64,000 nt of DNA from Acidobacteriota bacterium (GTDB taxonomy: Bacteria > Acidobacteriota > Thermoanaerobaculia > Multivoradales > J023), in assembly GCA_029263395.1 (NCBI GenBank), contig JAJCXO010000263.1, forward strand, positions 124,001 through 188,000, given 5' to 3'. Within the stretch, counting starts at the first letter, position 1, and each line of letters starts with the position of its first letter. The translations under genes were made by a program, and so were the position numbers. Positions 8,164 to 64,000 of this stretch are shown piece after piece. Below the pieces are notes generated by a model. That model did not search any database. It was given only the letters and a program-made list of their open reading frames with translations, and was not told the origin of the DNA.

Positions 8164-10422
8164 TCAAGACGACTGGGACCGCGATATTTCTTTGGTAACT
8201 TTGCGATGCTCTTCTTCCAGTAGCTGAAGGTGAGTCTGGCAGCGGTTGAGATCACCGTCCTCCGCTAGGGTTTCCAACGTCCGGCAAAGTTCTGATAGCT
8301 CCGATGCGCCGAGGTAGATGGCGCTGCCGGCCAGCGAGTGCGCCGTTTTTGCCAGCAGGTCGGTGTCGGCCTGACTGAGTGCTGTGTGCATCGTCTCGAT
8401 CCGAGTGGAGCCTTCTGCCAGAAAAAGTGCGTGCATCTGCGCTACCAGATCCTTGCCGGTCTTTTGTCCCAGTTGTTCGACGTCTAGCGGAGGCTGTAGA
8501 TTGCGAGGTACCTGGTCGTGGGTTTCGAATTTGTCGTTGGCATCAACAGGCTGGGCTTCCAAATCGGGGAGAGGTCTCTCTTGGTCAACGGGTAGCCAGC
8601 GCTCGAGTTTCATTGCGAGATCACCGCCGCGAAGTGGCTTCGAAACATAATCGTCCATTCCGGCGGCCAGACATCGTTCTCGCTCCCCTTTCATGGCATG
8701 AGCTGTGACCGCGATGATGACCGTGTGGTGCTGACTCGTTTCTAGTTGGCGGATTCTCCGAGTGGTTTCGTAACCGTCGAGGTCTGGCATTTGGCAATCC
8801 ATCAAGATGGCGTCGTAGCAATTACCAGCGAACCGGTCCAGCGCCTCCTGGCCGGCTGCGACGGCTTCTGCCGCGAAGCCGAGGTCCTCGAGTTGGCTCT
8901 CGGCGACCAAACGGTTGATATCGTCGTCGTCGACAACCAGAATCTTCAGAGTTTCTCGTCGTTCGATCGTTACGGTGTTGGTCTTTGGAGACTTGGCACG
9001 AGTGGTCACGACAAGGCCCTTGGGCACTCCCTGCCGAGCCTGCCACAATGGCAGCCGGAACCAAAACGTCGATCCTTCTCGAGCTTTACTTCGGAGTCCA
9101 ATCTCACCACCCATCAACTCGACGAGACTCTTGGCGATGGCGAGACCGAGTCCGGTGCCTCCGAACTTGCGGGCTGAGGTGGCATCTGCCTGGATGAATG
9201 GCGAGAAGATACTGGCTTGATGTTCGGTTGGGATACCAACGCCGGTGTCGTGTACCGAGAACAGAGCCGAGACTTCAGTCTCGCTGCGATCGATTTGCTC
9301 GACGCTGACCGTGACTTTACCTCGGGAAGTGAAACGAATGGCGTTGCTGATGAGGTTCAGCAACACCTGTCGCAGGCGCTGCGCATCACCGTAGAGTTTA
9401 TCCGGCAGCTCTTCAGCGATCGAGAGCTCGAGGTCGATGCCTCTCTCTGCTGCCTTCGGAGCAAGCAAGGCAACCGCTTTCTCCAGCAGGTCTCGGAGTT
9501 TGAAGTCCATGATGTAGAGCGATAATTTTCCCGCCTCCATCTTCGAAAAATCGAGCAAGTCATCCACCAAAACCAACAAGGTCTCGGCCGAAGTGTCGAT
9601 GGCCTCCACCAACCGGTGGTGGGATGGATCGAGATCTGCCTTGGTCAGCAGGTCGATCATGCCGACGACCCCATTCATCGGCGTCCGGATCTCGTGGCTG
9701 ACATTGGCCAGGAACTCGCCTTTGATGCGATCTGCCTCGCGAGCGCCTTGTTCGGCTTGTTTTCTTGTGACGATTTCTGCCTCGAGACTGGTCTCGGTTT
9801 GGCGCTGAAAGAACACAGCGATGGTTGTCAAGACGGCGACCGCCAGTATGCCGGTGATACGATGCACCAAACTCTGGATGCTACTCGCGGGAGCCAGGAG
9901 TGTCGGATTCAGCTCCGGCCCAGGCGAGAAAGCCCAGAATCCAAGGGTGGTCAGCAGGAACACGGCGATCCAGTACCAACCTCCCCTCAAGCCGGTGGTG
10001 AGCATTGCGGCCAAGGCAACGATGTAGAGCCAACCGAAGCTTGGATCGCTCAAGTTCCTACTGGAAAGATTGCCGAGCACAAGCATTGCATAGGCTGCAA
10101 GAATCGCGATGTGTGCTGCTAGCGCCGGAGCCCGACTGCGGCGCAAAAAGAGAATATTTCCGACACAGAGCAGCGTTGCGACACATAAGGCGAAGGATAT
10201 GAAAATCCTTCCAACCGACCAATTGAGCGCAACAAATGGGATCGCCAACACGCAAAGTGCGACGTTCATAACGTTGGTAATTCTAATTTGGCGAAGGAGC
10301 TGAGGTTCGGCATCGCTCGGTGCGATTCCCGAGCTGAGGAACGCATCGAGAAACGGCAGCCATACTCGAGTCGTAGGTGATTGCTCTCTGGCGGTTTCCT
10401 TCACGGTGCCCTCGCTCTTCAA
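8164..10422 (-). CDS. Hybrid sensor histidine kinase (6TM-HisKA-HATPase-REC-HPt)
   Basis: 752 aa with a TTG start at 10422; a GTG seven codons in is an alternative. Residues about 40-215 form roughly six membrane helices with no large periplasmic loop, suggesting a membrane-embedded input. HisKA has [12 protein letters not shown] with His 243. The ATPase has [16 protein letters not shown] and GTGLGLAI. The receiver has [23 protein letters not shown] (Asp 542), AVTAHAM and SKPL. The HPt has TAHSLAGSA (His 695). It converges on the preceding kinase gene and diverges from the NarL-type regulator at 10539. The HPt could pass phosphate to that regulator, but partnership is only inferred. Confidence 0.9.
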
Positions 10423-10538
10423 TTCACAACCGTGTTAAACTTGAGGCTCTCTAGCAGAGTTTTCATTCTTTTCCTCAAAAATCTTGCGGCCTTGCGACCT
10501 AGTCAATAACTGACCTGGTCCGTGACAGACTTGATGTC

Positions 10539-11171
10539 ATGATCCGAGTGATGATTATCGACGATCATCCGATCGTCCGAACGGGAATCAAAAGCCTGCT
10601 CGCTGGAGCGAGTGATATAGAAGTCGTTTGCGAAGCAGCGGATGGTGAAGATGGCCTGGTACAGGCGGCGAGGGTCCATCCGGATGTGATTATTCTCGAC
10701 ATTTCGTTGCCGGGGATGAGTGGCATGGAGGTATTGCAGAGCCTCAAGCAGCAAACTCACGGCGCAGCGATTCTAGTCCTCAGTTTGCATCCCGAGGATC
10801 GCTACGCGATTCGTTTGCTGAGAGCGGGTGCCAGTGCCTATTTGACCAAAGGTGCTCCGGCTGAGACTCTGATCCGAGCGATTCGTAAGGTCAGCCGTGG
10901 CGGCAAGTACATCAGCTCCAAAGTCGCAGAGAGGCTGGCGTTCAATCTCGATCTGGATTCTGATAGCCCGTTGCATGACAATCTTTCGCGTCGCGAGCTG
11001 GAAGTCACCCGCTTGCTCGCCTCTGGCAAAACCGTGACCGAGATCGGTCGCCAGCTCGCCATCAGTGTCAAAACAGTCAGTACGTATAGACGTCGGATCC
11101 TGGAAAAGCTTGCGATGCAATCGACCGCCGAAATTGTCCGTTATGCGGTCGAGAACCGACTGGTGGAGTGA
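10539..11171 (+). CDS. NarL/FixJ-family response regulator
   Basis: 210 aa. The receiver (about 1-120) has the DDH acidic pocket at residues 8-10, phospho-acceptor Asp 54 in IILDISLPGMSG, the switch Ser in LVLSLHPED and the conserved Lys in YLTKGA. The LuxR-type helix-turn-helix is at 145-205 (LSRRELEVTRLLASGKT, ISVKTVSTYRRRI). It is a DNA-binding transcription factor activated by phosphorylation. The gene diverges from the hybrid kinase at 8164-10422 with about 115 bp between them, a likely shared regulatory region. No clear Shine-Dalgarno precedes the ATG. Gene targets cannot be read from this window. Confidence 0.92.
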   Translation: MIRVMIIDDHPIVRTGIKSLLAGASDIEVVCEAADGEDGLVQAARVHPDVIILDISLPGMSGMEVLQSLKQQTHGAAILVLSLHPEDRYAIRLLRAGASAYLTKGAPAETLIRAIRKVSRGGKYISSKVAERLAFNLDLDSDSPLHDNLSRRELEVTRLLASGKTVTEIGRQLAISVKTVSTYRRRILEKLAMQSTAEIVRYAVENRLVE

Positions 11172-20853: not shown

Positions 20854-20888
20854 ACCGGAACTCCGATCCCCTGGCTACCAGAGCCGAA

Positions 20889-21199
20889 ACCAACACCCAG
20901 GGTTTACCCCCTGGGCTACCGTGTTCCGCCCTACGGGCTCTGATCTTGGACTCCGAACTCTTGAGCCCGGAGGGCGCCATCCAGTTGCCTCGGGTGTCAA
21001 CCCGTGGCGGGGTGGGCGATGATCAACCCGGCATCCACACCACAACCAACACCCAGGGTTTACCCCCTGGGCTACCGTGTTCCGCCCTACGGGCTCTGAT
21101 CTTGGACTCCAAACTCTTGAGCCCGGAGGGCGCCATCCAGTTGCCTCGGGTGTCAACCCGTGGCGGCGCTGGCAATGATCAACCGGCATCCACACCACA
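20889..21199. repeat. Tandem duplication of a 156-bp non-coding unit
   Basis: Two nearly identical copies (about 20889-21044 and 21045-21199) starting ACCAACACCCAGGGTTTACC, with a few substitutions and a one-base deletion. Inside each unit are inverted segments CCAGGG..CCCTGG and GGGCTC..GAGCCC. A partial third start (CACAACCAACTTCGC) follows. Open frames through the unit have low-complexity translations and are probably spurious. It resembles a dispersed intergenic repeat rather than an insertion sequence, as no transposase is present. Confidence 0.85.
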
Positions 21200-21296
21200 A
21201 CCAACTTCGCGACAAAACGATACCGCCCAACTGTGCGGGCGTGCGGTCTAACGGGAAACGAAACCCCTGGCGGTAACACAGTACCCATCACCACAC

Positions 21297-22085: not shown

Positions 22086-23183
22086 ATGAATCAATCTGAG
22101 GAGAGGGCCAAGAGATTGCTGCGGGAGATGTCGGATGATCCGGCAAGTCTTACTCGGCGTAAGGCTTACCACCGATCAACTTTTTTGCGGCTCTACATGG
22201 ATCACTGCGATGGATTGATATTTGATAACCCGCAGTACGCTCTACCTTGGGCAAGGGTCGCGCCGGATATTGCTCTACTGGTGCCGGCCGACAAGGACCA
22301 TGCTGAAGGTCTAGCGATGGCACACGCTGTATTGGGGGGTGCGCTGCGATCGGTAGGCAAACACGATCAGGCGGACGCCGAGTATCAGATCGCACTGAGA
22401 ATTGGCGATTCCGATGCCGTCTCCCTCGATGTGAGAGCAGAGATAACTAGTAGATTCGCGATGTTGCGAGCTTGTCAACAAAGACTGGATGAAGCCCTTG
22501 ACCTAGCAAGTACAGCTGTCGCTCACTATAGGGGCCATAAGCACGCGAAGTTGGCGGAGGCTCTTGCTAGGCTGGGCTATGTGCTTATTGTGCGTGGCGC
22601 GTACGATGAGTCCATATACGTAACCGGCGAAGCTCTAGAACTATCAGAGCCGAGACTTTCGGCGAGGTCTGCTCGCGTACACCATACCGCTACACATAAC
22701 CTCGCTTGGGCCGCGCTCAACACATCGTCTGTGGGTGTGCTCCGCGATGGACTGATACAAGTGAGAACAGCCCGCAAGTTGCTGAGGTCTCACTGTGATG
22801 GAGTCCCTCGTCATAAACTGGGTTGGCTTGAGGGTCTTTTGTGGTGGGCGCTAGATATGCATCCTCGTGCAATTACCGCGCTCGCATCGGCGCGTCGAGG
22901 ATTTTTGCGGTTAGCTCTACCCTTCGAAATAGTACTAGTCTCGATCGACCTCGCGGCAATGCACGCCTACTTCCGAGACTATGAACAGGCGTCGATCATT
23001 GCGGCTGGTGCGTTTGAGTATGTCGAGGTGTTGAAGTCAGACCGCGAAGCCATCGCCGTACTCAAGGTTTGGCTTGACGCGATCCAAGCGGGCGAGCTGA
23101 CCGAGGCGATATCGACGACGACTCGCCAGATGATCGAGACACGTATAGGCCCAGGTGGCTGCTGCCGATCGCGGAAGAACTAA
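22086..23183 (+). CDS. Soluble TPR protein with GPGGCC C-terminus
   Basis: 365 aa, no signal peptide, no membrane segment and no helix-turn-helix that I can see. Helical repeats of TPR type run from about residue 75 to 330 (LAMAHAVLGGALRSVGKHDQ; LAEALARLGYVLIVRGAYDE; LEGLLWWALDMHPRAI). The family resembles soluble TPR regulators I associate with Acidobacteriota. It ends in TRQMIETRIGPGGCCRSRKN, and a truncated relative at 63391-63633 shares this tail. No clear Shine-Dalgarno precedes the ATG, though the reading frame is conserved from there. A peptide-sensing role is a hypothesis based on the TPR fold and the tiny ORF upstream. Confidence 0.75.
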   Translation: MNQSEERAKRLLREMSDDPASLTRRKAYHRSTFLRLYMDHCDGLIFDNPQYALPWARVAPDIALLVPADKDHAEGLAMAHAVLGGALRSVGKHDQADAEYQIALRIGDSDAVSLDVRAEITSRFAMLRACQQRLDEALDLASTAVAHYRGHKHAKLAEALARLGYVLIVRGAYDESIYVTGEALELSEPRLSARSARVHHTATHNLAWAALNTSSVGVLRDGLIQVRTARKLLRSHCDGVPRHKLGWLEGLLWWALDMHPRAITALASARRGFLRLALPFEIVLVSIDLAAMHAYFRDYEQASIIAAGAFEYVEVLKSDREAIAVLKVWLDAIQAGELTEAISTTTRQMIETRIGPGGCCRSRKN

Positions 23184-24755: not shown

Positions 24756-25547
24756 ATGCGGGCTTTAATCCGATCTTTCGTCACCGTGGTCACTCTGTCT
24801 CTGTGTTTGCCCCTGGCGGCGGATGAGATCGAGAGCAGTCATCCCGAATGGGATGCCTTGATGAAAGAAGCAAAAAGACTGTGGGCCGTTGGGGATTTTG
24901 AAGCTGGCAACGGCAACCTGCTGCTAGCCGTCGAGCTTGCTCTCGACTCAGCCGAGCCGCTAACGCTTGCGCGGTCGCTCGACATGGCGGCGCGGGCTGT
25001 CAGTGACTCCAAGGAACAAATGAGGCTTCTTCTACAAGCCTACGAGATCAAAGAGAGTGCCCGAGGTCCGCGCTATGTGGGCCTGGCTGACACCCTGATT
25101 CTGATGGGCGGCACGGCTAGCACACTCGCCTATAAGAGGCGCGAGGATGGCAGCGACCCGGACCCGAGTACGTATGTCCCAGCGGCTCAAAAGTTGTATT
25201 CTCAAGCCCGCGCCATTTTGTTGGAGGAATACGGCGAAGGGTGCGAGGTGGGTCGTGCTGAAGGTTTGCTTGCTGGCTGTCTGGAATCTCTCGGTGATGT
25301 CGGCAAAGCCGAAAAACTCTATCGAAAGATTCTCGACTATTGCCCAGTCGATCCAGCAGACGCGGACTGGGAACAAGCGGGCACGTCGGCGGCCGTGATG
25401 TTGGCCGAGCTGCTTCGGAAGCAAGGGCGCGAAGCTGAGGTTGCCGAGCTGCCCGAGCTACCGTCTGGCCCCGGCCGAGACTATGGCGAGCCCAGCCCCG
25501 GCTATGAGGCCCCGTCGGATGTGTTTCTAATGCCCACTGACGGGTAG
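24756..25547 (+). CDS. Exported TPR protein, paralogue of the preceding gene
   Basis: 263 aa. Signal peptide MRALIRSFVTVVTLSLCLPLAA. TPR-like helices include WDALMKEAKRLWAVGDFEAG, AQKLYSQARAILLEEYGEG and AEKLYRKILDYCP, ending with MLAELLRKQGREAEVAELPE and an acidic, Pro/Gly-rich tail. Same architecture as the gene at 23995. Together with the HExxH protein these form a small set of exported products downstream of the cytoplasmic TPR gene. Specific role unknown. Confidence 0.7.
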   Translation: MRALIRSFVTVVTLSLCLPLAADEIESSHPEWDALMKEAKRLWAVGDFEAGNGNLLLAVELALDSAEPLTLARSLDMAARAVSDSKEQMRLLLQAYEIKESARGPRYVGLADTLILMGGTASTLAYKRREDGSDPDPSTYVPAAQKLYSQARAILLEEYGEGCEVGRAEGLLAGCLESLGDVGKAEKLYRKILDYCPVDPADADWEQAGTSAAVMLAELLRKQGREAEVAELPELPSGPGRDYGEPSPGYEAPSDVFLMPTDG

Positions 25548-25649
25548 CGGGTCCGGCGAAGCAAGTCGATTCCGCGGGACGGACCCGCAAAGTACTTCGG
25601 TTTTGTCCACTGTCACGATGCCAAGCCGCGCCGTCGACTCTTCGAAGTT

Positions 25650-25948
25650 TTGGCATCTGCATTCCCTGCGAGGCGCTGCATGAGATCGAAGACCTCGAGT
25701 GTTCCGTCGAGGAGTTTGGGGACACGTATCCAAAAGGGAGAAAACTCGAGCAGGCGGTCCGTGAATTTCGGACCTACATCGAGAAAAACGGCCGACTGAC
25801 CCCAAACTACGGCGAACGCTGGCGACACGGCGACGCCATCTCGACGGCTTTTGTTGAGTCGAGCGTCAACGCCGTGGTCAACAAGCGATTCCGCAAAAGG
25901 CAGCAGATGCAGTGGTCGAAGCGAGGAGGTTCACCGCCAGTGTCCTAG
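25650..25948 (+). pseudogene. Transposase C-terminal remnant
   Basis: From 25682 to a TAG at 25948 the plus strand encodes EIEDLECSVEEFGDTYPKGR, then REFRTYIEKNGRLTPNYGER, then ISTAFVESSVNAVVNKRFRK and RQQMQWSKRGG. This matches the conserved end of transposases of the ISKra4-like type (assignment from memory). The upstream part is in another frame with stops (SKFWHLHS near 25644), and the expected ending after KRG is lost. Clearly non-functional. Marks past mobile-element activity beside the palindrome array. Confidence 0.75.
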
Positions 25949-26112
25949 GCTCCGCGTGGACAAATTTAGCTCTCTGGGTTGAAAAGCCTAAATCTGTCGC
26001 AAGAAATAGACTTTTTATCCCTGGAGGGTTCTGAAGTGGCCGAGATCTCGAATCAGCTACCCGGTTTCAGGCCTTACACACACTTTTGTACCTCATAAGC
26101 GCCAGATCGGCC

Positions 26113-26280
26113 GATGGCCGATCGATTTTCGCGTGGCACAGCGATCAGCCATGGGATGGCCGATCAATTTTCGCGTGGCACAGCAATTAGCCATTGGATG
26201 GCCGATCGATTTTAGCGTGGCACAGCGATCAGCCATTGGATGGCCGATCGATTTTTGCGTGGCACAGCGATCAGCCATCG
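26113..26280. repeat. 42-bp tandem repeat, four copies (array A)
   Basis: Four units of GATGGCCGATCGATTTTCGC plus GTGGCACAGCGATCAGCCAT plus two bases, each 42 bp, with only a few substitutions. At each unit boundary GATCAGCCAT-TGG-ATGGCCGATC forms a palindrome, centred near 26154, 26196 and 26238. The unit continues in phase into array B. Open frames on both strands exist because 42 is divisible by three, but they carry no ribosome-binding site and are not considered genes. Confidence 0.9.
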
Positions 26281-26495
26281 TCGATTCTGACGGTTTGTGG
26301 CGTTTTGAATCGTCAGAATCTCAACTATTCTGACGATTCATTACACTTGAACCGTCAGACTTTCATTCGTTCTGACGGTTTGAAGCGTTTGAATCATCAG
26401 AATTTTGAGTTTTCTGATGATTCAACGGCGTTGAATCGTCATTTTTTTCAAAATTCTGACAGTTCGCAGGTCATTGAATCGTCAGAATTCTTGAA
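26281..26495. repeat. Palindromes at 42-bp period with varying arms (array B)
   Basis: Stem-loops centred at about 26323 (GAATCGTCAGAAT/ATTCTGACGATTC), 26365 (AACCGTCAGA/TCTGACGGTT), 26407 (GAATCATCAGAA/TTCTGATGATTC) and a weaker one near 26449, followed by a lone left arm at 26475. Spacing is 42 bp and continues the phase of array A. Arms change in a compensated way between stems. It lies between the 3' ends of two convergent transcription units, and no protein is encoded. Confidence 0.85.
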
Positions 26496-26551
26496 ATGAG
26501 AAGCTGAGTAAACACGCAGGAGAACGGGCGCGGAGGCTGCTAGAAGACGGT

Positions 26552-26587
26552 CTGTCAAAAAGACAGGTCTGCTAGAAAACAGGTCTG
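26552..26587. repeat. 16-bp duplication at the 3' end of the antiporter operon
   Basis: CAGGTCTGCTAGAAAA occurs twice in tandem and again starts at 26583. A related unit, GTCTGCTATGAAATAG, is duplicated upstream of the giant repeat protein near 57430. Confidence 0.75.
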
Positions 26588-28303
26588 CTAGAAAACAAAG
26601 TAGAACAACAGATAGCCGCCCAGCATCAACGCGACCCTCAGCGTGATGCTGCCAGTGGTCCAGTTGCGGGCGAAGATGCCCTGTGGACCGTAGAGTTTGT
26701 TGAGGCCCTGGCGGATCGCTGCCAACCCTCGTCCAAGAGTCGCCATTAGCGCGTTCCAGGCGCCACCACCGACGCGTGCGACGCTGCCAGTCAGGGACGG
26801 CAACGCCTTGCGATAGACCCAATCGGAGTCGATGTTGGTCGAAGCAACTTCCGGCGGATAGATCCGGGTTTTCATCAGTACCGCGAAGGCCAAGGCTGCG
26901 AACAACAAAAGCTGCAGTTGGGTGACAACATGGCTGCTGGTATATGGCTGGTAATCGACGGTGTAGGGCAAGAGGCTGTAGAGGGCGCTCGGGAAGGTGC
27001 CGATCAGGACGCAGAGAGTCGCCGCGATACCCATTGCGAGCAACATGTTCCAGGGTGCTTCTTTGCAGCGTTTGCCCGAGTCGTGGGCGAAGAATGCAAA
27101 AAATGGGATTTTGATCCCGGAATGCTCCATCACACCCGCGGAAGCGATCAACAATCCGATCCAAATAATGACGAGATGTTCCTCAGCCACCGCGCTCAGA
27201 ATCAGTGATTTCGAGATGAAACCGCTGAATAGTGGGAAGGCCGAAATCGACGCCGCGCCGACCATACAGAACGCTGCGGTCCATGGCATCGATTTGTAGA
27301 GCCCGCCGAGCTCGGTCGCCTTGATCGTTCCGACGCGGTGCAGCACCGCCCCCATCGACATGAACAGCAGAGCCTTGTAGAGAATGTGGCAGAAGGCGTG
27401 GGCGACGGTGCCATTCAACGCCATTTCCGTACCGACTCCGATGCCGACCACCATGAAACCCAGCTGGTTGTTCAGGCTGTAGGCCAAGACCCGTCGCAGG
27501 TCGTTCTCGATCACTGCGAACAAGACCGGGAACAAGGTCATGGTGACACCGATCCAGATCAAGATCTCAGTGCCGGCGAATGCCCGCGCCAGGGCGTAAA
27601 CCGCTAGCTTGGTGGTGAAGGCGGAAAGGAAAACTGTGCCGGTCACCGTCGCCTCGGGATAGGAATCCTGCAACCAATTGTGCAGTAGCGGGAAGGCACA
27701 TTTGATGCCGAAGGCGATGAAGATTAGTACCACCCCGGGGCCGGCTGAGCCGAGATCGCCGCTGGGGCCGATCAAGTTCTCGAAAGCCAGCGATCCGGTC
27801 GCCTGAAAATGCAGAATCACTCCCGAAAGTAGCAGCACGCCGGAGCCTACTTGGATCACCAGATAACGCATGCCGGCGCGATAAGAGCGCTCGGTCTCGC
27901 TGGCCCAGATCAAGTAGACCGACGAGATCGCGGTGATCTCCCAATAGATGAAGAGGGTGAGGAAGTCGCCCGCAAAAACGGCGCCGATGGCGCTGCCAGC
28001 GTACATCATGCCGGAGACGTGCTGCCGCACGTCGCGAACGTGCAAGGCGTAGAGCACGCTCAGGAAGGCCGCCAGATGAAAAATGTAGCCGAAGATCAGG
28101 CTCAGGCGGTCAACGCGGAGTAACGTGAGCTGATAACCGAACAGCTCGAGTTGACCGTGATTGCCGTGTTCGAGAGTCAGTAGCTGCGCGAAGCCCAGGA
28201 TTGGCAACAGCAACATCCAGGCCGACTGCAGCTTGCCCTTGAGCAGTGGGATGATCAGAGCGCCTACGATCAGGACCCAGCCGGGTGGCAGGCTATCGAT
28301 CAT
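26588..28303 (-). CDS. Mrp-type antiporter / proton-conducting membrane subunit (MnhD/NuoL-M-like), third copy
   Basis: 571 aa, about 14 membrane helices. Contains the quinone oxidoreductase/Mrp antiporter signatures LFIYWEITAISSVYLIWAS (the conserved Glu of helix 5) and FGIKCAFPLLHNWLQDSYPEA (the conserved Lys of helix 7), plus YSLNNQLGFMVVGIG and a His/Lys helix. It is the last gene of a nine-gene operon and overlaps the small membrane gene before it by 11 bp. Likely moves protons or Na+ in the membrane-bound complex. Confidence 0.9.
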   Translation of the reverse strand: MIDSLPPGWVLIVGALIIPLLKGKLQSAWMLLLPILGFAQLLTLEHGNHGQLELFGYQLTLLRVDRLSLIFGYIFHLAAFLSVLYALHVRDVRQHVSGMMYAGSAIGAVFAGDFLTLFIYWEITAISSVYLIWASETERSYRAGMRYLVIQVGSGVLLLSGVILHFQATGSLAFENLIGPSGDLGSAGPGVVLIFIAFGIKCAFPLLHNWLQDSYPEATVTGTVFLSAFTTKLAVYALARAFAGTEILIWIGVTMTLFPVLFAVIENDLRRVLAYSLNNQLGFMVVGIGVGTEMALNGTVAHAFCHILYKALLFMSMGAVLHRVGTIKATELGGLYKSMPWTAAFCMVGAASISAFPLFSGFISKSLILSAVAEEHLVIIWIGLLIASAGVMEHSGIKIPFFAFFAHDSGKRCKEAPWNMLLAMGIAATLCVLIGTFPSALYSLLPYTVDYQPYTSSHVVTQLQLLLFAALAFAVLMKTRIYPPEVASTNIDSDWVYRKALPSLTGSVARVGGGAWNALMATLGRGLAAIRQGLNKLYGPQGIFARNWTTGSITLRVALMLGGYLLFYFVF

Positions 28304-62719: not shown

Positions 62720-62812
62720 ATCTACCTCGCGCCGGCGGGACATCACATCTCCAACCTTCCAACTCCCACCCTGGGCCCACCAGGAGACGTGTTGTGACGA
62801 CCGAGGGCGTTT

Positions 62813-63376
62813 CCTCAATGGTGAGGACGCCGTTTTCAGATTCTAAAGTCGCATCCTCAATGGTGAGGAACGCTATTTGGAAGTCCGATTTCGGCTTCCT
62901 CAGCGGTGAGGAAGGCTTTCCGAGCCGGACAAATTGTCTCCTTCGGAGGAAATGTGAACGACCCAACGGTCTCGGGTCGCTCGCCTCACGGCCAAGACGG
63001 TCACCGGAGCGTCGCGGGTCGCTGTCCTCACCAGTGAGGGCGCCTCCTGAGACCCCGGCCAAGGGTCCCTCAGCGCTGAGGAGGGGTCCCGGAGTCTCTG
63101 GGATACCCGTCTCAGTGGTGAGGACACAGCTCGCGCCAAGCAGAAGGTCCACCTCAGTGGTGAGGCAAGCGACCCGACGTTCTCAGGTCGCTCGCCTGAC
63201 CGTGAGGAAGGTCACCCGAGCGTCTCGGGTTGCTGTCCTAACCGCGGGGGAATGCAACTGAGCGTCTTGGGTCACCGTCCTCACCGCTGACGGCGTGGCC
63301 CAAGACCGAGACGACGGCTCATTAGCGGTGAAGCCGTGGCCTGGAGCTTCTGAAATGACCGTCCTCAGCGGTGAGA
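62813..63376. repeat. Array C: CCTCA..TGAGG palindromes at 42-bp period
   Basis: Core TCCTCA-NNNN-TGAGGA (loops ATGG, GCGG, CCAG, GCGC, GTGG) centred at about 62820, 62862, 62904, 62944, a degenerate one near 62988, 63032, 63074, 63116, 63158, 63201, 63243, 63285, 63327 and 63369: 14 positions at 42 +/- 1 bp. About half-way between them, a second palindrome ACCCGAGCGTCTCGGGT or a variant recurs (centres about 62969, 63011, 63095, 63180, 63222, 63264). No protein or ribosome-binding site. Not a CRISPR. Confidence 0.85.
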
Positions 63377-63390
63377 ATAGAGGTGCCAGC

Positions 63391-63633
63391 CACCTCGGCC
63401 TCGCCGCCGCGCATTGTTACTTTCAGGACTACGAAGCGGCAGCGCACGTCGCCGCAGACGCCTACGAACATGGGGTGATGCTGGAGTCCAATCAGGAAGC
63501 GATCGCCGCGCTCAAGCTCTGGCTCGACGCCATACTAGCGGGCGAGCTCGACGAAGCAATCTCGACGTCGACTCGCCAGATGATCGAGTCTCGTATCGGT
63601 CCAGGTGGCTGCTGTCGGTCGCGGAAGAGATAG
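63391..63633 (+). pseudogene. Truncated copy of the GPGGCC TPR protein
   Basis: About 80 codons: SHLGLAAAHCYFQDYEAAAH, then VAADAYEHGVMLESNQEAIA, then ALKLWLDAILAGELDEAIST, then STRQMIESRIGPGGCCRSRK. It matches residues about 285-365 of the TPR protein at 22086-23183 (LDAI.AGEL.EAIST, GPGGCCRSRK). The 5' three quarters are absent; homology begins about 15 bp after the last palindrome of array C. A frame opens at 63295, but there is no ribosome-binding site, so it is probably a pseudogene. Confidence 0.8.
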
Positions 63634-63795: not shown

Positions 63796-64000
63796 GGGTC
63801 GATCCCCGCGGGTACGGGGAAACCCCGTCAGCTTCAGGGTCGATCCAGGTCAGCACGGGTCGATCCCCGCGGGTACGGGGAAACCGAGAACCTTTTGAGC
63901 TTCGTCGAAGTACCCGTGGGTCGATCCCCGCGGGTACGGGGAAACCGGAAAGTAACGCTTAGCCAGCCCAACCCATTGAGGTCGATCCCCGCGGGTACGG
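63796..64000 (+). CRISPR. Type I-E-like CRISPR array, first units (continues past the edge)
   Basis: Repeat GGGTCGATCCCCGCGGGTAC plus GGGGAAACC, 29 bp, starting at 63796, 63857, 63918 and 63979 (the last cut by the edge and with A in place of one G at its start). Period is exactly 61 bp, so spacers are 32 bp. Repeat shape (CCCCGCGGGTACGGGG hairpin ending in AAACC) and 29+32 geometry are those of type I-E. Three full spacers are visible at 63825-63856, 63886-63917 and 63947-63978. The first contains GGGTCGATCC, identical to the first 10 bases of the repeat. No cas genes seen. Confidence 0.95.

Follow-up and report, generated by a model that had tools for sequence, protein, structure and literature searches.

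What is conserved when the unit sequence of a palindrome array changes and its spacing does not? This question is raised by a locus at 26113–26500 in the window, by which we mean the whole stretch of 64,000 nucleotides of Acidobacteriota DNA that was analysed. A preliminary description of the window reported there two arrays of 42-bp units, A and B, with different cores and a common phase, and argued that the period is what is conserved. Here we follow the arrays through the genome from which the window comes (G000) and through a second genome of the same genus (G001), and ask what might hold such a period.

Arrays A and B share one register

Array A (26113–26278, + strand) consists of four 42-bp units that show 92% matches among themselves and zero indels; its core, TCGATTTTYGCGTGGCACA(GCGATC), is the portion retained in the sister genome. 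Array B lies on the same strand and has five units with half-sites within 26285–26487: unit 1 (26285–26318; half-sites 26285–26297 and 26306–26318), unit 2 (26328–26360; 26328–26340 and 26348–26360), unit 3 (26370–26402; 26370–26382 and 26390–26402), unit 4 (26412–26444; 26412–26424 and 26432–26444) and unit 5 (26454–26487; 26454–26466 and 26475–26487). Tandem repeats of 16 bp (CTGCTAGAAAACAGGT) lie at 26537–26597, in the interval from array B to the convergent gene on its right.

All eight palindrome centres of the preliminary description were recovered. The linker dyads of A and B are centred at 26154, 26196, 26238, 26280.5, 26323, 26365, 26407 and 26449, the junction having earlier been placed at "about 26280". 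Modulo 42 these positions are 30, 30, 30, 30.5, 31, 31, 31 and 31, and the loop dyads move from 9 to 10.5. A joint phase fit gives a total drift of the 42-bp register from A into B of only 1–1.5 bp, so that A indeed runs into B without a break in phase. Certain single dyad centres, in A and at the junction, are weak (scores of 4–5, where chance gives a mean of 4.1 and a 99th percentile of 8), and the signal is carried by the whole series of centres and not by individual ones. Because the A-to-B register in other copies is shared by descent, the phase at this locus is not independent evidence for a fixed period; independent support comes from other arrays elsewhere, beyond A and B.

A and B form a single dispersed composite element

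Arrays A and B are parts of one composite element that opens with an inverted repeat at ~25974–26024 (+ strand; CTGGGTTGAAAAG ... CTTTTTATCCCTGG), located by alignment of dispersed copies and by its hairpin fold and seen in all copies with a readable left side. A connector of ~88 bp (26025–26112, + strand), taken from the alignment of an orthologous pair (contig C194 of G000 and C38 of G001), leads from this repeat to array A. The aligned copies comprise the left inverted repeat, the connector, 3–4 A units and ~5 B units, in constant order. We found the element at about seven places in the 10.7-Mb G000 genome, where a BLAST search with array A returned copies on contigs C94, C194, C49, C84, C162 and C269/C220; among 58 relatives it occurs in the same-genus G001 only. 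A sequence pattern for B has 31 forward matches in G000 (control matches, 0), every one of them inside a composite element, with no singleton genome-wide. The core of A has no exact copy in viral contigs.

In the window, the 3′ ends of two genes point toward the element: a TPR protein gene on its left (24756–25547, + strand) and, on its right, a gene that by eye putatively encodes an antiporter/NADH-dehydrogenase-like subunit (26588–28303, − strand). Immediately left of the element, an open stretch at 25640–25950 ending ...VVNKRFRKRQQMQWSKRG looks by eye like a transposase tail and has no Pfam match. A tandem duplication of 156 bp at 20888–21205 contains a REP-like palindrome (CCCAGGGTTTACCCCCTGGG). 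The window has no Rfam match, and a group I intron model found nothing in the bacterium's own genome.

The 42-bp period extends to arrays of unrelated sequence

A third array, C, had also been reported with a 42-bp period. We find it at 62810–63379 (+ strand), with ~14 units of ~42.3 bp built on the dyad CCTCA-NNGN-TGAGG and a mean spacing of 42.2–42.5 bp, in agreement with that report; single steps are estimated at 38.5–46 bp across its five copies. Array C is also dispersed, with four more near-full-length copies in the genome that are 75–91% identical. Directly past it, at 63420–63633, lies a fragment that by eye resembles the C-terminus of the TPR gene at 22086–23183 and looks as if the remainder of the gene was lost at array C. 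A CRISPR-like array with a 29-bp repeat (GGTCGATCCCCGCGGGTACGGGGAAACCG) and a period of 61 occupies 63796–64000, starting ~400 bp past array C and reaching the window end.

The class was inventoried with palindrome-chain, tandem-repeat and lag scans over 0.84–1.0 Mb of G000. In a lag scan of 835 kb, 11 tandem-array loci fall at lag 42 and nine at lag 84, and every lag outside this series has ≤3 loci; 42-bp units are not confined to one locus. Most of the further 42-bp arrays of G000 have units unrelated to one another. Three of them (L075, L085 and L071) have a TTTGGCAAAATGCCA-like motif in common and may be one family. A motif near CGAGCGT is common to L056 (9940–10150), L066 (10650–10910) and L101 (11950–12220), so that some families may be distantly related. 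The unit spacings are 42 bp in 66 of the 72 cases measured, 41 bp in five and 43 bp in one, figures that gauge precision and not enrichment, since the arrays were chosen for being near 42. A further in-phase change of unit, with CGGCCG every 42 bp, occurs on contig C680 of G001.

When the arrays are masked, the 42-bp signal left in intergenic DNA is not above coding-like multiples of three. No 42-bp peak appears in the DNA sampled from other genera, which came from five genomes (G002, G006, G010, G038 and G047); array sampling excluded G003–G005, ~2.3 Mb was read in total across seven genomes, and the assemblies of G000 and G001 are fragmented. One locus of another genus (L138 of G006, 10171–10600) repeats the motif AAGGTGCCACGTAGTTTCCGAGACG at varying distances of 26–42 bp, in contrast to the fixed pitch of this genus. 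In the limited open-access literature that we searched there is no description of an array class with a shared period.

Gene calls from a home-made finder place 26 of 27 arrays in intergenic DNA and one within a predicted gene. Of the intergenic arrays, nine have convergent, thirteen tandem and two divergent neighbouring genes, and two are at contig ends; gene 3′ ends adjoin 24 of the 26. In an unbiased sample, convergent genes flank six of nine arrays; among long intergenic regions the figure is 18 of 125 (p 0.001). Certain arrays, array C of the window included, adjoin truncated genes.

The period is kept between sister genomes

Two orthologous comparisons, of the kind proposed in the preliminary description, bear on what is conserved. 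First, the L075 array and its G001 orthologue (L218) differ by 64 substitutions over 261 bp with 0 gaps (75% identity); the intergenic flanks of these arrays are 51–60% identical with 40–63% gap columns. Second, the composite elements on C194 and G001 C38, which have their A-side gene in common, align with 2 gap columns in ~535 despite an identity of 47–68% (left repeat and connector 47.5% and gap-free, A 68%, B 58%). The gap-opening penalty was raised for this second alignment, and the stretch beyond the element nonetheless took 41 gap columns. The A units of G001 retain the asymmetric core TCGATTTTYGCGTGGCACA and have lost most arm complementarity, and their pitch is still 42 bp; the same pitch is found in a G001 B array whose arms are partly different. 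Of the palindrome arrays first described, then, the 42-bp period is kept and the palindromy of A is not conserved. These alignments support the view that the period, not the sequence, is the constrained property.

The arrays also turn over. L092 has eight dyads in G000 versus two, 41 bp apart, in G001; the L098 array is present in G000 and missing in G001; and near L089 the start of the array in G000 coincides with the point where a gene breaks off that runs on in G001. The G001 counterparts of the genes flanking L097 and L101 showed no array, and neither did the stretch inspected at the counterpart of the left gene of L085; the L085 result says little, since its two flanking genes are not adjacent in G001. 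At the window's own AB site, the corresponding G001 contig stops within the adjoining gene.

Such rapid change in copy number and presence at L092 and L098, the unrelated units of most arrays and the truncated genes beside some of them are all consistent with selfish or near-neutral minisatellites, functionless arrays that would be amplified from any sequence, in 42-bp steps, by an enzyme of recombination, replication or repair that measures out a fixed length. The arrays do resemble bacterial minisatellites and VNTRs in being tandem and in having a unit number that varies between relatives, as at these two loci. They differ from them in that one period runs across unrelated arrays and that indels are nearly absent between orthologues that are rich in substitutions. 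Moreover, arrays B and C, which are not homogenised, hold phase though every unit differs, the conservation of B is concentrated in its half-sites, and phase persists through changes of unit. We consider an origin as functionless minisatellites unlikely.

Dyad symmetry, half-sites and arm pairing

Dyads are clear in B, C, L092 and L098. Whole-unit dyad symmetry beats shuffles (p < 0.05) in B, L092 and L098 only, reaches 0.06 in A and is not significant in most other arrays. In B, the triplet TGA is invariant in 70 of 70 half-sites, the right-to-left spacing is 22 in 28 of 28 cases and the left-to-right spacing is 20 or 21, and the two sides of the dyad are conserved as mirror images of each other (r 0.85, rank 1 of 42). 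The corresponding symmetry is weak in L092 (r 0.49, rank 1) and was not found for A or L075, and for this reason we do not claim a dimer site for every family. Within-unit pairing of the arms is 0.763 in B (35 units), against 0.751 for random arms, and 0.867 in A (26 units), against 0.868; in C it is 0.743, compared with 0.697 for random arms and 0.723 for the same unit of another copy. The pattern in B fits independent protein half-sites.

The pairing data bear directly on whether the arrays act as RNA, as transcribed chains of hairpins that terminate transcription or shield mRNA 3′ ends. The position of 24 of the 26 intergenic arrays beside gene 3′ ends agrees with such a role, and both strands fold strongly (z −8.5 and −10.1), although strong folding follows from repeated palindromes as such. 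RNA hairpins are nevertheless quite improbable, because the palindrome arms in A and B do not co-vary; arm mismatches are about as frequent as chance, the pairing excess in C is small, and it is not obvious what a constant 42-nt pitch would do for an RNA. We also rejected protein-coding repeats of 14 residues: array substitutions are even across positions modulo 3 (p 0.47, 0.85 and 0.62), and all frames are closed across A and B in the window, although some shorter array pieces keep a single frame open.

Comparison with REP elements and guide-RNA arrays

As clustered extragenic palindromic repeats in alternating orientation, the arrays recall the REP and BIME elements of enterobacteria and Pseudomonas, and they might have been spread by RAYT (Y1) transposases. 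Y1 transposases have 18 matches in G000, one of them ~1 kb upstream of array L097. They are equally common in genomes without the 42-bp peak (17 matches in G002, 11 in G006), and we therefore rejected RAYT as the sole cause. The REP definition calls for a GTAG or CGTC tag, with a stem of 8–9 bp and a loop of 4–5 nt in the CGTC type (PMC3733652); B carries CGTC inside a 13-nt arm and has a loop of 7–8 nt, and the consensus dyads of A and C do not fit. REP and BIME sequences also differ from these arrays in that here the 42-bp pitch is fixed over unrelated units and the arrays are not made of dispersed singletons, the B pattern, as described above, being confined to composite elements. A REP-type origin thus has a low probability in our judgement, about as low as, or slightly lower than, that of an RNA role.

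Guide-RNA arrays of the TIGR-Tas type, suggested by the two conserved elements of the B unit that are split by short variable stretches (7–8 and ~9 nt), are largely ruled out, since a Nop-domain protein had 0 matches in G000, G001, G002 and G006 while control genomes did match; in addition, the units of other arrays are near-identical with nothing spacer-like, and tigRNA units measure 36 nt (PMC12045711).

CGNR zinc-finger genes adjoin some arrays

The reading that we prefer, protein binding, calls for a binder. We searched for the zf-CGNR domain (PF11706) because a gene encoding it flanked three copies of the composite element. G000 has 14 matches and G001 has 12; the counts for G002–G006 are 0, 0, 1, 1 and 1. 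Flanks were inspected for four of the 26 genes, and in all four a 42-bp array lies past the stop codon, at a distance of ~27 bp (C49), 61 bp (C536 of G001), 30 bp (C38 of G001) and 46–55 bp (C30). C49, C536 and C38 had been chosen for their AB arrays, and C30 came from the unbiased sample, in which about 20 of ~760 genes are array neighbours; this puts p for the C30 adjacency at about 0.03. The C536 and C38 proteins are 57–60% identical to the AB-linked C49 protein; the C30 protein is only 33% identical to it and adjoins an array of a different family. At this locus (L097, 17025–18860), 2 kb of DNA contain, one after another, a REP-like repeat of 74 bp, a Y1 transposase match, the ABATE-CGNR gene and the 42-bp array.

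Above cut-off, the C49, C536 and C30 proteins match PF07336 (ABATE) as well as PF11706; the C38 gene, which runs off the end of its contig, matches PF11706 only. In the published description of an ABATE-CGNR protein (PMC2954205), a dimer is considered likely and DNA binding is predicted for its treble-clef zinc finger. Compared with the family member Jann_2411 (PDB 3h0n, PMC2954205), the three full-length array-adjacent proteins share the two domains; the differences here are that each genome has 12–14 finger matches, that the protein extends C-terminally past the finger and that a tandem array lies just past the stop codon. The extension is missing from the G005 protein, the product of the sole CGNR gene of that genome, and no array lies near this gene. 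ABATE proteins of plasmids are distant (~30% identical). An AlphaFold2 model of the C49 CGNR protein, made with three sequences, is poor (mean pLDDT 57.7).

Most arrays do not adjoin a CGNR gene, and the position lists of array C copies and CGNR genes show no coincidence; the CGNR gene expansion in this genus may be a coincidence. The literature that we searched holds no description of DNA sites for the CGNR zinc-finger family.

A model of phased protein binding

We infer protein binding, the identity of the binder, one-to-one pairing and boundary function from sequence, and they merit different degrees of confidence. The arrays are probably phased protein-binding DNA. A 42-bp unit would correspond to four helical turns and would place every recognition core on one face of the helix; with all cores on one face, identical protein dimers could line up side by side and form a nucleoprotein string. 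The core of A, asymmetric in G001, is a poor fit to a simple dimer site.

A known arrangement of similar geometry is sopC, the partition centromere of plasmid F, in which twelve 43-bp repeats each carry a palindromic ParB site. Like sopC, the arrays have head-to-tail repeats of about four helical turns in which each unit would hold one dyad-symmetric protein site; the dyads are clear here in B, C, L092 and L098 and, over the whole unit, not significant in most other arrays. They differ from it in that each genome has many arrays of different sequence and that the candidate binder belongs to a zinc-finger family and is not ParB.

That paralogous ABATE-CGNR zinc-finger proteins bind the arrays is close to an even call. 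It is a more tentative proposal that the genus holds a set of such paralogues, each with its own 42-bp array, in which the pitch would be set by the protein assembly and kept while protein and site co-evolve and diverge. Each CGNR paralogue would then read its own unit sequence, with one copy of the array directly downstream of the cognate gene and other copies dispersed to intergenic sites, chiefly by gene 3′ ends. We find it doubtful, on present grounds, that these dispersed copies serve as boundaries or roadblocks, although they are possible elements of that kind.

If the model is correct, the genome would hold a set of orthogonal, addressable nucleoprotein elements. Repeat families are usually recognised by sequence, whereas here the conserved property is geometric, a four-turn pitch common to arrays with little or no shared sequence and kept through 25–50% divergence. 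Such conservation speaks for a structural constraint on DNA, one that would be invisible to sequence searches, and it offers a candidate target for the CGNR zinc-finger family.
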